Positions 42,509 through 64,000 of a DNA stretch of 64,000 bases are shown in pieces. The translations under genes and the position numbers were made by a program. This DNA comes from Dehalococcoidia bacterium (GTDB taxonomy: Bacteria; Chloroflexota; Dehalococcoidia; Lucifugimonadales; UBA3495). Every line of letters starts with the position of its first letter. Positions within the stretch are counted from its first letter, which is position 1. Location: assembly GCA_022823505.1 (NCBI GenBank), contig JAJEIA010000022.1:1-64000 (forward strand), in the 5' to 3' direction. The notes below the pieces were generated by a model. The model was not told the origin of the DNA. It worked only from the letters and a program-made list of their open reading frames with translations, and did no database searches.

Positions 42509-42730
42509 TTGAGAACCGACTTGCTGGACATACTGGCCTGCCCGGTCTGCAAGGGTGCACTGATCCTCGATGCGGAGACAATCGCGTCTGAAGAGGCACC
42601 GGACGCCGGAGAAGTCCTCACGGGTACGCTGACCTGCTCCGCGTGCAACGAGGTCTATCGCATAACGGATGGCATTCCCAACCTGCTCCCTCCCGACCTG
42701 CGGGATGCGGAGGCCGCGGCGGGGCGCTAA
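42509..42730 (+). CDS. Trm112 family small zinc protein
   Basis: 73 residues. Two Cys pairs (LACPVCKG and LTCSACNE) form a zinc-ribbon-like fold, and YRITDGIPNLLP is the family ending. In eukaryotes and archaea Trm112 activates tRNA, rRNA and protein methyltransferases; bacterial members are less known. A TTG start at 42509 is preferred over GTG 42500, because AGGG then lies 8 nt upstream and the protein begins in the family style (LRTDLLDILACPVC). Downstream of and on the same strand as the redoxin and CopD-like genes. Confidence 0.8.
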   Translation: MRTDLLDILACPVCKGALILDAETIASEEAPDAGEVLTGTLTCSACNEVYRITDGIPNLLPPDLRDAEAAAGR

Positions 42731-42764
42731 ACGGATTCGAGAACCTTGCCACTGGAGGCCCATT

Positions 42765-43157
42765 ATGACGATCGATCTCGACAAGCTATACGCCGAGCAG
42801 GCGATCAACGGCAAGTACCGCAAACTTTATGCGCACCTTTGTGAGGTGAAAGACCCCGAGTGGAGCGCTACGTTCAGCGAGATCGAGACGATCATCGGTT
42901 TCAAGTTGCCCCCCGAGGCGCGCGAGTATCGCCCCTGGTGGTCGGACACCGGGTTCGATCAAGTCAGGGCCTGCCTCGCCGCCGGGTGGAGAACAGCGAA
43001 GGTGGATATGGACGCAGAGACCGCGCAATTTTGGCGCAAGGATTCGCCCGCCTTCCGCCGCCGTGCTATTGATGAAATATTGCCGCCTCGCTCTTTCGGG
43101 CCCTGGCCGGAGGGCCTGAGCCTACGGCGCGAGGATATCTACGAGGAACGGATCTAA
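42765..43157 (+). CDS. small conserved protein, DUF7662-like
   Basis: 130 residues. It carries a pattern I recognise from small conserved proteins: KYRKLYAHL near the start, FSEIETIIGFKLPPEAREYR, then WWSD and AAGWRTAKVDMD. These domains have no assigned activity. GGAGG (42754-42758) 6 nt before ATG fixes the start. The PIN gene begins 7 nt after its stop, so the two are almost surely co-transcribed and may act together. Confidence 0.75.
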   Translation: MTIDLDKLYAEQAINGKYRKLYAHLCEVKDPEWSATFSEIETIIGFKLPPEAREYRPWWSDTGFDQVRACLAAGWRTAKVDMDAETAQFWRKDSPAFRRRAIDEILPPRSFGPWPEGLSLRREDIYEERI

Positions 43158-43164
43158 TCAACCG

Positions 43165-43587
43165 ATGTTTGTTGACACCAATGTCCTGGTAAATGTTCGA
43201 GCTGTCGGAGCGCCGCACCACGACGCAGCCAAGGACATACTGGAACGCACCTCTCTTGACCGCGAACCACTGCGCATCAGCAGGCAGATCATACGGGAAT
43301 ACTTGTCAGTGGTTACGCGCCCGCAAATTTGGGCAGATCCGTTGGATCTCGATACAGCGCTCGATGACGTGAACCGGATGCTCAGCGATTTCGAGATACT
43401 CGAGGACGGCCCGGCGGTGACCGGAACACTGTTCGCTTTGCTCCGTGAAGTGCCGGTGGGTGGACGACAAATCCATGACGCCAACATCGTTGCAACCATG
43501 CTGGCCCGCGGGGAGCGCCGGCTCCTTACGTTCAACATCGCCGACTTTCGGCGGTTTGGCGACCGGATAGAGTTGATCGCCTACTGA
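43165..43587 (+). CDS. PIN domain ribonuclease
   Basis: 140-residue PIN (VapC-like) nuclease. The metal-binding acids are Asp4 (FVDTNVL), Glu45 (IIREYLS), Asp105 (HDANIVATM) and Asp127 (NIADFRRF). PIN proteins in two-gene sets usually cleave RNA and are held in check by a small partner. Here the partner position is taken by the DUF7662-like gene rather than a known AbrB, Phd or RHH antitoxin. ATG 43165 lies 7 nt after the preceding stop. A TAGGGGCGAA palindrome follows the gene. Confidence 0.88.
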   Translation: MFVDTNVLVNVRAVGAPHHDAAKDILERTSLDREPLRISRQIIREYLSVVTRPQIWADPLDLDTALDDVNRMLSDFEILEDGPAVTGTLFALLREVPVGGRQIHDANIVATMLARGERRLLTFNIADFRRFGDRIELIAY

Positions 43588-43610
43588 CGGCCGGCCCACA
43601 CGCCGAAAAA

Positions 43611-43636
43611 TAGGGGCGAACAATCATTCACCCCTA
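43611..43636. repeat. TAGGGGCGAA palindrome, copy 1
   Basis: TAGGGGCGAA-CAATCA-TTCACCCCTA, ten pairs with one mismatch. It lies between the convergent PIN and UGSC genes, and may act as a two-way terminator. A longer, perfect copy lies at 46129-46164. Confidence 0.65.
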
Positions 43637-43659
43637 CGTATGTACGTGCGACCCTTGCC

Positions 43660-44196
43660 CTATCCGCTCGTCAGGATCGCTGCCACCTCGGTCGCTAGGC
43701 CCTCGGCGCGCTCTCGCAGGGCGGGGCGGTCCAGGTTCTCGATTGGATGCGCCGTGAAAATCGTGGGATAGTCCTCGGCGCCCCACATCTTGGCCATGGC
43801 GTTGGCCGTGGGGATGAACCGGTCGGTGCAAATGGTAGCGGAGGGGAGGCCAGCCTTCTCAACGTGAATTCCGTCGTGCACACTGCACGCGCTGCAGCTC
43901 CCTCAATCTCCGATGGCAACCACCACCGAGTCCACGTTGGCGACCAACTCTTCCATTTCCTTCGGATCGGCGGGCCGCGACGCGCTGGGCTTGCGCAGCC
44001 AGCGAATCTCGCGGATCTCGTAGCGGTTCCGCAGCACTTCTGCCAACTCCTCGAGCAGAACGTCGGCGTTGCGCTTGCTGTCGTCGATGAGGCCCACCCG
44101 CGTGCCCGCCAGGGTGGGCAGGCGCGGCGCGCCGTCGAAAGGCGCGATGATGGGCTCGGTGGTCGGATTGACCAGCGTGTATTGTTGGGTTGCCAT
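43660..44196 (-). CDS. UGSC family selenoprotein (in-frame TGA = Sec98)
   Basis: 178 residues if the in-frame TGA at 43905-43903 is read as selenocysteine. The residues just after it are G-S-C-S-A-C, so the motif is U-G-S-C, the name-giving motif of this family. The N-terminal part (LVNPTTEP, LAGTRVGLIDDSKRNADVLL) and the C-terminal part after the TGA (SVHDGIHVEKAGLP, ICTDRFIPTANAMA, AHPIENL) both match the family without any shift. A hairpin fitting a bacterial SECIS follows the TGA. ATG 44196 has AGGAGGG 6 nt upstream. The function is unknown; the U-G-S-C-x-x-C set suggests redox or thiol chemistry. The 355-residue partner gene lies 33 nt upstream on the same strand. Confidence 0.9.
43875..43905 (-). 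promoter_or_regulatory. candidate bacterial SECIS of the UGSC gene
   Basis: Just after TGA (43905-43903) the mRNA can fold CGTGCA-GUG-UGCACG: a perfect 6-bp stem (43889-43884 with 43880-43875) and triloop GUG. The loop starts 19 nt after the TGA and has G first. These features fit the known rules for bacterial SECIS elements (short G-containing apical loop, 16-37 nt from UGA). Confidence 0.7.
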
Positions 44197-44229
44197 GTCC
44201 GGCCCTCCTGGATCCTGTTCCTGTCGTTG

Positions 44230-45297
44230 CTACGGTATGTTTACAGCCCTGGTGACTGCGGTAGAGCCAACCTTCGGCCCCCAGCTGGGTATCACCGACG
44301 AGGAGTTGGACTCCTCACCGCCGGCGAATACTAACAGAATATCCTCCGGATCGGGAATAAGCGGGACCATCTCCGCCTCGTCACCCGGTTCAACGTCCCC
44401 GCGCAGCACCAACCCGCGTTTCAGGTCGGCCACGGAGCGCTGGATATTCGCGTGCAGGTACTCCCGGACCTGTTGCTTCGTCCAGTCCCGCCACAGGTTG
44501 CTGTTCCCGGCGATGGTGATCCCCACCTGCCCCTGCCGGATCCCCACGGACACGTCACCCACCGATCCGGAGGTGGACATCGACGTCCCCAACGACGACG
44601 CCACGTCCGCAATCGCGAACAGGATGGCCTCGGGGCGGCCCACCGACCTCACCTGCCGGGGACCCTCGCTGGCAAACACCGTGACCGTGCTGTCGCCGGG
44701 ATCGAAGCCGCGCTCCACGTGCAGGGGCGTCCAGTGGGTTTCGCCCTCGGCCTCGCCGATGCAGTAGGTGTACTTGCCGGGGTGTCCGATGACGCTGCGG
44801 TCGAACAGGCCCGGGATGGCGGCGCAGGCGTTCATCAGGATGAGACGGATGGCGCGGCCGATGGTGCCGTTGGCGCGGTTGCCCGGTCCGAACAGGTTGT
44901 TGCGGCTGTTCAGACCGATCTGCTCCCGGATCGGGCCGTTAACGATGCACAGCACTGCCGCCCCGCCCATGCTGGACGACGGCCCCACCAGGTTGAACAC
45001 CGGGTCAAGCATGGCTTCCGTGGCGGCCAGCACCACGGGAAAGTACTCGGGCAGGCATCCGGCCATCACGGCGTTGGCGGCCGCCTTTTCCACCGTGATC
45101 ACGCGGCGTCGTTCGGGCAGTTCGCCCAGGACGTCTTCCGGGCCTCGCCCGGAGTAGCCGATGAACTCGGCCACGCGGGCCGTTGTGGGCGGGACCACGG
45201 GCAGGCCATCGCTCCAGCCCAGCTCGTATCCCTTCTCTATGGCGGAAAGGGCGTCGTCCCAAGTGGTGGTGGTAACGTCGGTAAAATTAGTGGTCAA
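44230..45297 (-). CDS. conserved protein upstream of the UGSC selenoprotein
   Basis: 355 residues, no recognised catalytic family. It begins TWDDALSAIEKGYELGWSDGLPVVPPT and has invariant-looking blocks MAGCLPEYFPVVLAATEAM, GGAAVLCIVNGP, NACAAIPG and PGKYTYCIGEAEGETHW. The conserved Cys and Gly/Asn loops hint at a cofactor or thiol-binding enzyme. No signal peptide or membrane helix is seen. Start TTG 45297 is supported by AGAGG 8 nt upstream. It is separated from the UGSC ATG by 33 nt, so both are expected as one transcript, with this gene first. Its role in selenium or thiol chemistry is inferred from position only. Confidence 0.8.
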   Translation of the reverse strand: MTTNFTDVTTTTWDDALSAIEKGYELGWSDGLPVVPPTTARVAEFIGYSGRGPEDVLGELPERRRVITVEKAAANAVMAGCLPEYFPVVLAATEAMLDPVFNLVGPSSSMGGAAVLCIVNGPIREQIGLNSRNNLFGPGNRANGTIGRAIRLILMNACAAIPGLFDRSVIGHPGKYTYCIGEAEGETHWTPLHVERGFDPGDSTVTVFASEGPRQVRSVGRPEAILFAIADVASSLGTSMSTSGSVGDVSVGIRQGQVGITIAGNSNLWRDWTKQQVREYLHANIQRSVADLKRGLVLRGDVEPGDEAEMVPLIPDPEDILLVFAGGEESNSSSVIPSWGPKVGSTAVTRAVNIP

Positions 45298-45308: not shown

Positions 45309-45680
45309 CTAGTGGTCGCTGGTTACATTGGCTATGGCAAGCAGTTGCTCAACAAAGTCCAAAGTTTGCTGCTGCCGTACAATCAATTCCAGAACAGACA
45401 GAAACCCTTGGTCCGCATCGGCGTGAATGCGCATCGCCACTTTTAGGGAGTCATTAAGTTCAGCATTGTTGGTCTCGTCAGCCACCCTGCGAATGACAGC
45501 CCGCTTATGCTGATATTTGCCATAACCTTGTCCGGTTGCGATGCCGATCACGCTGATGGCGTGCTTTACGGCCAACCAGAGGACATCGGAGGCGGGCCGA
45601 CGGCGTCCGCGCGCGATTAGTTGATGGCTGATCTGGATGCAGTCCAACGCTTCTCTGGCGTGCTCCGCTCCGGTCAGCAT
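45309..45680 (-). CDS. small helical HEPN-like protein
   Basis: 123 residues, nearly all helical, with ASDVLWLAVKHAISVIGIATG then NAELNDSLKVAMRIHADADQGFLS. The pattern resembles HEPN/PaREP1-type helical bundles, but no clear R-x4-6-H motif is present. It overlaps the stop of the upstream gene by seven bases (ATGCTGA), so translation is coupled. The weak homology and short length limit the call. Confidence 0.6.
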   Translation of the reverse strand: MLTGAEHAREALDCIQISHQLIARGRRRPASDVLWLAVKHAISVIGIATGQGYGKYQHKRAVIRRVADETNNAELNDSLKVAMRIHADADQGFLSVLELIVRQQQTLDFVEQLLAIANVTSDH

Positions 45681-63021: not shown

Positions 63022-64000
63022 ATGGCCAGATTGGAAGACCTTCCAGCCGGAGAACGCGAGCTGATGATGAATATCCCCATGCCGCATTTCGATACCACGC
63101 CGTTCGTGACGGGCAAACCGCTGTCGGAACGACGGGTAGCGATTCTGTCGACGGCGGCCCTGCAAACCCGCAGCGATCGGGCCTTTGCGTGGGGAGATGC
63201 CGGCTATCGCGTCATTCCTGGCCAAACCCAGCCCAACGACATCATCATGTCGCACCGTTCGGTCAACTTCGACCGCTCCGGATTCCAGCAGGACTACAAC
63301 GTTTGCTTCCCGCTGGATCGCCTGCGCGAGTTGGCCCATGCCGGAGTGATCGGCTCGGTGGCCGACTATCACTACACCGTTATGGGCGCCAATGCTCCCG
63401 AACGACTGGAAGACACGGCGCGCCACATCGCGGGGCTGATGAAGCGCGACGCCGTGGACACTGTGCTGCTGGTCCCAGTTTGACCGCGCTGCACGTGCGC
63501 CGTTGGCGGACTCGCCCATTACATCGAGCAGGAGGGAGTCGGCACCACGCAGATCAGCCTGATCCGGGAGCACACCGCAGCCATCAGGCCCCCGCGGGCC
63601 CTGTGGGTGTCCTTTGAGCTCGGGCGGCCTCTGGGCGTGCCCAACGACCCGGCGTTCCAGACCCGTGTCCTGCGGGCCGCTTTGGCGTTGATGGACGCCG
63701 AAGCTGGCCCCGTTCTGGAAGACTACCCTGAAGACGTTCCGCCCGAACTGGCTGGCGTTGATTTCACCGGAATGTCATGCCCCATAGACCTGCCGCAGCC
63801 GTCGTCCGTCGAACACGGGATCGTAGAAGATTTGCTGCAAGAAATACAGCAGGTCGCCCCCTGGTACGACCTGGCGGTGAGTCAACGCGGACGCACCACC
63901 GTCGGCATAAGCGAGCTGAACATGGAACGGGCCGGCCGGTTTCTGGCGGGTTACATCGTGGACGAGACCACTCCGGCGCCACGCTCGGACCTGACCGCGG
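63022..64000 (+). CDS. glycine/sarcosine/betaine reductase selenoprotein B-like protein (in-frame TGA = Sec154), partial
   Basis: The frame stays open through TGA 63481-63483 and continues to the right edge, giving at least 326 residues. The N-terminal part (VGRLxx-like ARLEDLPAGERELM, SHRSVNFDRSGF, GVIGSVADYHYTVMG) and the part after TGA (CAVGGLAHYIEQEGV, FELGRPLGVPNDPAFQTRVL, LEDYPEDVPPEL) both fit the GrdB selenoprotein-B family. The motif is VPV-U-PRCTC, a U-x-x-C redox pair (Sec154, Cys157) plus Cys159. ATG 63022 has AGGTG about 6 nt before it. True GrdB works in glycine/betaine reductase complexes; other members have unknown substrates. The 3' end lies beyond the window. Confidence 0.9.
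63481..63511 (+). promoter_or_regulatory. candidate bacterial SECIS of the selenoprotein-B-like gene
   Basis: After TGA (63481-63483) the mRNA can form CGCC-GUU-GGCG (63498-63501 with 63505-63508), extended by G-U/A-C pairs (63495-63496 with 63510-63511) around one G-G mismatch. The GUU triloop begins 18 nt after TGA with G first, fitting bacterial SECIS rules. Confidence 0.6.

Follow-up and report, generated by a model that had tools for sequence, protein, structure and literature searches.

A UGSC-family selenoprotein gene and its near-constant partner gene in Dehalococcoidia: a possible two-subunit selenoenzyme akin to GrdB

We analysed a window of 64,000 nucleotides at the start of contig JAJEIA010000022.1 from a Dehalococcoidia bacterium (assembly GCA_022823505.1). 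On its minus strand, positions 43660..44196 hold a UGSC-family selenoprotein gene of 178 codons (178 aa) running from an ATG start to a TAG stop. Its single interruption is a TGA at 43905-43903 (minus strand), codon 98, where the frame reads U-G-S-C-S-A-C and alignment with homologues predicts selenocysteine 98 of the UGSC motif. An AGGAGG ribosome-binding site, read from the sequence, lies at 44204..44209 (minus), 7 nt before the ATG. A terminator-like hairpin, 12 bp and then a U-run, follows the full-length stop at 43610..43637 (minus); folding gave it a z of -4.7, and it is missing from the pattern-scan list. An earlier note on this DNA had given the gene the same coordinates, strand, TGA and motif. 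It had also held that a plain ORF call would cut the gene into pieces of 294 and 222 bp, and the table-11 ORF list reproduces exactly this split: 43903-44196 (294 bp, 97 aa) and 43660-43881 (222 bp, 73 aa). Upstream on the same strand, at 44230..45297, an ORF with a TTG start encodes a 355-aa protein of no named family, which we call the partner; it ends 33 nt before the UGSC gene. Beyond it lies a small PaREP1-family ORF (45309-45680, minus). Convergent with the UGSC gene, a DUF7662 ORF followed by a PIN-domain (VapC-type) ORF at 42669-43587 (plus) forms a possible toxin-antitoxin pair.

Could translation really stop at the TGA, which would make the ORF a pseudogene or a pair of genes, as the split in a plain ORF call would have it? 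The halves on both sides are conserved. Searched alone, the half 5' of the TGA matched PF24696 at positions 3-92 (E 1.8e-19) and the half 3' of it matched positions 94-171 (E 2.6e-26), so that the two matches leave just the TGA position uncovered; the earlier note's claim of family-like sequence on either side thus holds. The read-through protein matched PF24696 with E 1.3e-54 and 185 bits (cut-off 25), and NF041046 with 152 bits (cut-off 125), and it carries the U/C-G-S-C motif of the family. Across 124 aligned UGSC segments from the fetched loci, a set in which the genes of our own genome count twice since each sits in two loci, the Sec column was TGA in 123. The remaining row, from M. gordonae, was Cys (CGSC). 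Homologues do not all end at this TGA, as Cys forms continue past that position. An alignment of 36 members (the window protein plus 35 of the 81 UGSC segments) shows no variation at the motif's second Cys.

A bacterial SECIS hairpin is expected just downstream of the UGA. We found a SECIS-like hairpin, CGUGC-AGUGU-GCACG, at 43875..43889 (minus), 16-30 nt after the first base of the TGA. Numbered from the T of the TGA, pairs 16-20/26-30 all formed in 96 of 103 distinct TGA sequences, and sliding the register by 1-3 bases left all five pairs in at most 1% of sequences. In the 51 nt upstream, the best 4-bp placement formed in 32%. Altogether 97.5% of hairpin cells paired, compared with 86.5 +/- 0.8% in 1000 column shuffles, and 35 cells carried double changes against 7.2 +/- 2.2 in the shuffles. 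Pair 20-26 was C-G in 87 sequences, G-C in 15 and G-G in 1. When residue 104 was Trp (TGG), codon 106 ended in C (14/14 sequences); when codon 104 ended in C, codon 106 ended in G (87/87), and this extends to silent choices among Val and Leu codons. Most loops read AGUNU, and the M. gordonae Cys gene retains two of the five pairs. Folded alone, the window copy gave a z of -0.17 against shuffles and a different minimum-energy structure. Parsimony gave 5 and 4 changes, one pair on well-supported branches; switches on such branches are few, and support for the independence of the compensatory changes is weak. By comparison of sequences, a conserved hairpin with compensatory changes fits the position of a bacterial SECIS.

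A host that makes this protein would need a selenocysteine insertion system, as the earlier note had implied, and our genome assembly (164 contigs, 87% complete, 7% contamination) bears this out. It contains tRNA-Sec (66.4 bits, Rfam cut-off 47, with ARAGORN in agreement), selA (544 bits), selD (374 bits) and selB. The selB gene is split over two contig ends: an N-terminal part (307 bits) breaks off where contig C120 ends, and an ORF with the C-terminal match runs off the end of contig C106. The selD gene (locus L035, contig C40) carries one in-frame TGA; hence selenophosphate synthetase may itself be a selenoprotein here. Because all 14 control genomes matched tRNA-Sec at E<=0.001 and 5 of the 14 exceeded the cut-off, we used only the cut-off. 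By this measure tRNA-Sec was present in 36 of the 40 genomes of the relatives search, our own included. The other four were G005, G020, G023 and G039, the first three of which have UGSC genes. UGSC genes with a TGA but no tRNA-Sec over the cut-off occurred in G005, G020, G023 and G105; incomplete assemblies are the likely cause. G025 (47.3 bits) and G090 (48.8) lay only just over it. Three single-contig genomes of the same genus (G003, G007 and G011) each combine a tRNA-Sec over the cut-off with 6-8 UGSC genes. With this machinery in the host, the TGA at one column, the conserved halves and the hairpin all standing against it, we regard a broken gene as extremely improbable. Comparison strongly supports Sec at residue 98, and the same body of evidence supports a full-length selenoprotein, predicted to be made by SelB/SECIS recoding of UGA.

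The gene is one of several. Our genome has 7 UGSC genes with one TGA in each, 13 other genomes of the genus have 6-10 copies apiece, and the family occurs in 30 of the 40 genomes of the relatives search, our own included; among the UGSC matches listed for that search, one (G009:C45) lacks the TGA. We also picked 24 further genomes, for spread, from 80 loci found through the partner (below). All 24 have UGSC genes, 91 of the 94 genes with one TGA, and 23 of the 24 have a tRNA-Sec over the cut-off. The three genes without TGA are two in M. gordonae, which has Cys UGSC genes although one tRNA-Sec scores over the cut-off, and one in G087.

The family itself has been known as "UGSC-containing" since the 2008 GOS selenoproteome (PMC2398784) and corresponds to PF24696 and NF041046. 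It was the fifth-largest selenoprotein family of that ocean survey, with 255 sequences, and was described there as likely to have a thioredoxin-like fold, with a UGSC protein reported as fused to a domain "Unknown_1" (PMC2398784). The window protein resembles the GOS family in its near full-length match, its UxxC motif and its TGA. What differs is the setting: the accessible text of the 2008 account gives no regular partner gene, GrdB relation or reductant (PMC2398784). The family is also listed in PMC9312934, and a 2026 review places it among families with largely uncharacterised functions (PMC13188914). Our literature search found no functional study of it. Beyond the earlier note, our analysis adds the partner gene, the seven genomic copies, the hairpin and the GrdB relation.

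Each of the 7 UGSC genes in our genome has a partner homologue, either fused to it or on its own strand no more than 1.5 kb away. The distances are 36, 36, 46, 776, 892 and 1446 nt, plus one fusion, and other ORFs intervene in at least two of these loci (C91 and C90). Among relatives, with flanks of just 1.5 kb, 27 of 29 fetched UGSC loci had a partner homologue. A genome scan with the partner only returned at least 587 relatives, of which we kept the best 80. These span Dehalococcoidia/SAR202, Rokubacteria, Burkholderiales, Gamma- and Alphaproteobacteria, Binatia, Acidimicrobiia, Nitrospinae, Acidobacteria and others, and 75 of the 80 loci contain a UGSC gene in the DNA fetched. The five that do not are L079, L085, L127, L130 and L146; L085, L127 and L130 are near a contig end. 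In the 75 loci the two genes are on the same strand in 74 and within 200 nt in 63, with a median gap of 58 nt (largest 5231); the order is partner-UGSC in 61, UGSC-partner in 13 and opposite strand in 1. In addition, about 8 kb beyond the window in locus L029 (10218-11939, our contig C33), a 573-aa single ORF with one TGA joins a UGGC-type domain to a partner domain, and further single-ORF fusions occur in L083, L084 and L108. Such regular adjacency, or fusion, of the UGSC and partner genes suggests one two-protein enzyme. Neighbourhood and fusion support two subunits, UGSC and the 355-aa partner, which would be in physical contact.

What is the partner? Neither Pfam nor NCBIfam assigned the window's partner to a family at E<=1. 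Fifteen members gave scattered weak matches to these libraries, the best in Pfam being Gate (2 members, 0.0027), and a search of PDB sequences gave one match at E 2.7. What is new here is the near-constant company of this 355-aa protein, which nothing in Pfam, NCBIfam or the PDB sequences matches significantly. Among named sequences, those nearest to the neighbouring gene (85-94% identity) come from Dehalococcoidia/Chloroflexi MAGs. In an alignment of the window protein with 85 of 87 partner segments, Cys81 (MAGC) was kept in 83 of 86 and Cys179 in 78 of 86; Cys81 is Ala or Gly in three fused copies (L083, L084 and L108). The AlphaFold model has a pLDDT of 92.2 and a pTM of 0.92.

Plasmid records extend the pairing. 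Thirteen matched UGSC and 24 matched the partner; we retrieved 9 of the UGSC records and a further 9 of the partner records. The partner adjoins UGSC in 9/9 of the first set, and UGSC was found in 6/9 of the second; in a Haladaptatus locus that matched the partner we found no UGSC domain. The 15 plasmid UGSC domains comprise 2 with TGA (Acidovorax and Paracoccus) and 13 with Cys, including all 7 haloarchaeal ones. Haloarchaeal plasmids L159, L163, L169 and L172 show partner-UGSC-partner triplets, with two partners around one Cys-type UGSC. Sporomusa and Vibrio plasmids encode fused relatives with a weak N-terminal UGSC-like domain (21-25 bits) in which MGTS replaces U/C-GSC (L165:7281-9005 and L170:6323-8008); these lack the redox residues of the motif and lie near aconitase X genes.

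Profile searches pointed to GrdB and PrdB. At E<=1, 19 of 36 UGSC proteins matched TIGR01917 (best 2.4e-6) and 10 of 36 the PrdB model (best 1.1e-4). We compared the family by hhalign with seven GrdB-like proteins, from 7 of 8 fetched loci of the same order as the host, L154 being left out and two being from our own genome. The alignment covered 95 columns with E 1.5e-7 and probability 94, Sec on Sec. The seven carry three U-G-[ST]-C motifs, one UGTS and three U-P-x-C. With 25-417 bits they fall short of the 602 bits that TIGR01917 requires, as does every protein in the 59 genomes searched; hence the comparison set is GrdB-like, not proven GrdB. The window UGSC protein lies under the GrdB/PrdB cut-offs (21.8 bits against 602 for TIGR01917 and 18.2 against 65 for TIGR01918), and by score it is not a GrdB. 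This resemblance of UGSC to the GrdB/PrdB selenocysteine domain, Sec on Sec, is new here, and the profile comparisons support a probable shared ancestry of the two domains. Both have Sec aligned to Sec in a homologous domain; unlike GrdB, UGSC matches just the C-terminal part of the 431-position GrdB model. GrdB/PrdB systems also have a pyruvoyl-type GrdE/PrdA subunit (PF09338), whereas the UGSC partner shows no relation to it at the sequence level: PF09338 gave no match in 15 partners at E<=1, and comparison with putative GrdE-position proteins gave a profile-profile probability of 0.4, with no relation to GrdB or UGSC either. Among the families that neighbour UGSC loci, of which 25 of 87 are listed, GrdA, GrdC and GrdD do not appear. 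The window also contains a GrdB/PrdB-like ORF at 63022-64000 (plus; continuing in L149 to 2697) with an in-frame TGA in UPRC. It is under the family cut-off and is a candidate second selenoprotein. A paralogue with UPLC lies in L148, where ORFs that by eye resemble the PaREP1-family ORF adjoin the GrdB-like gene.

In glycine reductase, thioredoxin is the reductant (PMC10298544). GrdB-like proteins also occur in a monofluoroacetate operon of anaerobic Synergistota, which ties GrdB-type proteins to the cleavage of a non-amino leaving group off a small acid (PMC10838667; PMC1088965 is cited alongside the glycine reductase and fluoroacetate operon literature). That operon differs from the UGSC loci, and the abstract of PMC10838667 names no UGSC protein. 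Could thioredoxin feed UGSC as well? The gene order is trxB-trxA-partner-UGSC in Arthrobacter, partner-UGSC-trxB in Roseovarius and partner-UGSC-TrxR-like in Dehalococcoidia locus L134, and in Variovorax SRS16 trxB precedes the partner with two genes between. By raw count, 12 of 105 loci have a TrxR-like gene (9 of 18 plasmid loci, 3 of 87 others). In 5 of the 105, an adjacency first reported here, the gene adjoins the pair within 150 nt on the same strand (L134, L156, L162, L167 and L171); L162 may be a decayed locus, as both its partner and its TrxR match are broken in two.

These neighbours are compatible too with a thioredoxin-fold thiol oxidoreductase or peroxidase, in which case UGSC, as a selenoprotein, would have a general role in redox chemistry or detoxification, and the partner would be the specific protein it targets or its scaffold. 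The UxxC pair favours that reading, as do the authors of PMC2398784, who consider a Trx fold likely and note Cys residues in the fused domains. However, at E<=1 the 36 UGSC proteins between them match 23 NCBIfam and 20 Pfam families, in which GrdB/PrdB models recur and no thioredoxin-family model appears. The 6-10 copies in same-genus genomes and the catabolic surroundings also speak against it, and we judge it unlikely, if worth keeping in view. Of 158 near neighbours that qualified, 119 were selected and 88 of these scanned against Pfam; the 25 of 87 families listed include luciferase-like monooxygenase (5), TctC (4), short-chain dehydrogenase (4), NHL (3) and CoA-transferase III (2). Near UGSC pairs there are TctC and TRAP receptors, CoA-transferases and CoA lyases, an organic-acid setting. 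The neighbours vary between loci, and since the most widespread cluster spans just 17 of 87 loci, there is no constant third gene. A coenzyme-M-like reading, prompted by a phosphosulfolactate synthase encoded close to UGSC in Arthrobacter and Natrinema, was rejected: the Arthrobacter copy matched its own locus alone among the 105.

An external reductant may not be needed at all if UGSC is a non-reductive lyase or transferase with Sec as covalent nucleophile or metal ligand. The 93 of 105 loci that have no TrxR-like gene agree with this, as do the UGSC-like domains without U/C and the aconitase X and isocitrate-lyase-type genes near some copies. The invariance of the second motif Cys in the 36-member alignment and the TrxR/Trx genes adjoining the pair in some lineages argue against it, and we think it quite improbable.

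We therefore favour, at a little better than even odds (roughly 55%), a GrdB-related enzyme composed of a catalytic UGSC subunit, recoded through SelB/SECIS, and a 355-aa subunit, fed by thioredoxin and acting on small organic acids. In the proposed mechanism, the UGSC protein would be the catalytic subunit and the product of the upstream gene the other. The partner would hold a small organic acid while the Sec98 selenolate attacks or reduces a bond beside the carboxylate; Cys101 would then resolve Sec98 as a selenenylsulfide, and NADPH-thioredoxin reductase and thioredoxin would restore the Sec98/Cys101 pair. Paralogues within one genome may serve different substrates. That thioredoxin supplies the pair, and that it acts on small carboxylic acids, is our inference.

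ORF callers that read TGA as a stop split UGSC genes. The near-constant partner, the sequence anchor in GrdB and a candidate reductant offer a handle on the role of selenium in UGSC, and with them a testable hypothesis for an orphan selenoprotein family. More tentatively, and with the odds somewhat against so specific a picture, UGSC and its partner may constitute a previously unassigned class of two-subunit selenoenzyme: a slimmed, thioredoxin-fed offshoot of the glycine-reductase Sec domain that would cleave or reduce small carboxylic acids bearing substituents, in heterotrophs from many phyla of bacteria, with a Cys form in haloarchaea and 6-10 substrate-specific copies per genome in this Dehalococcoidia genus.
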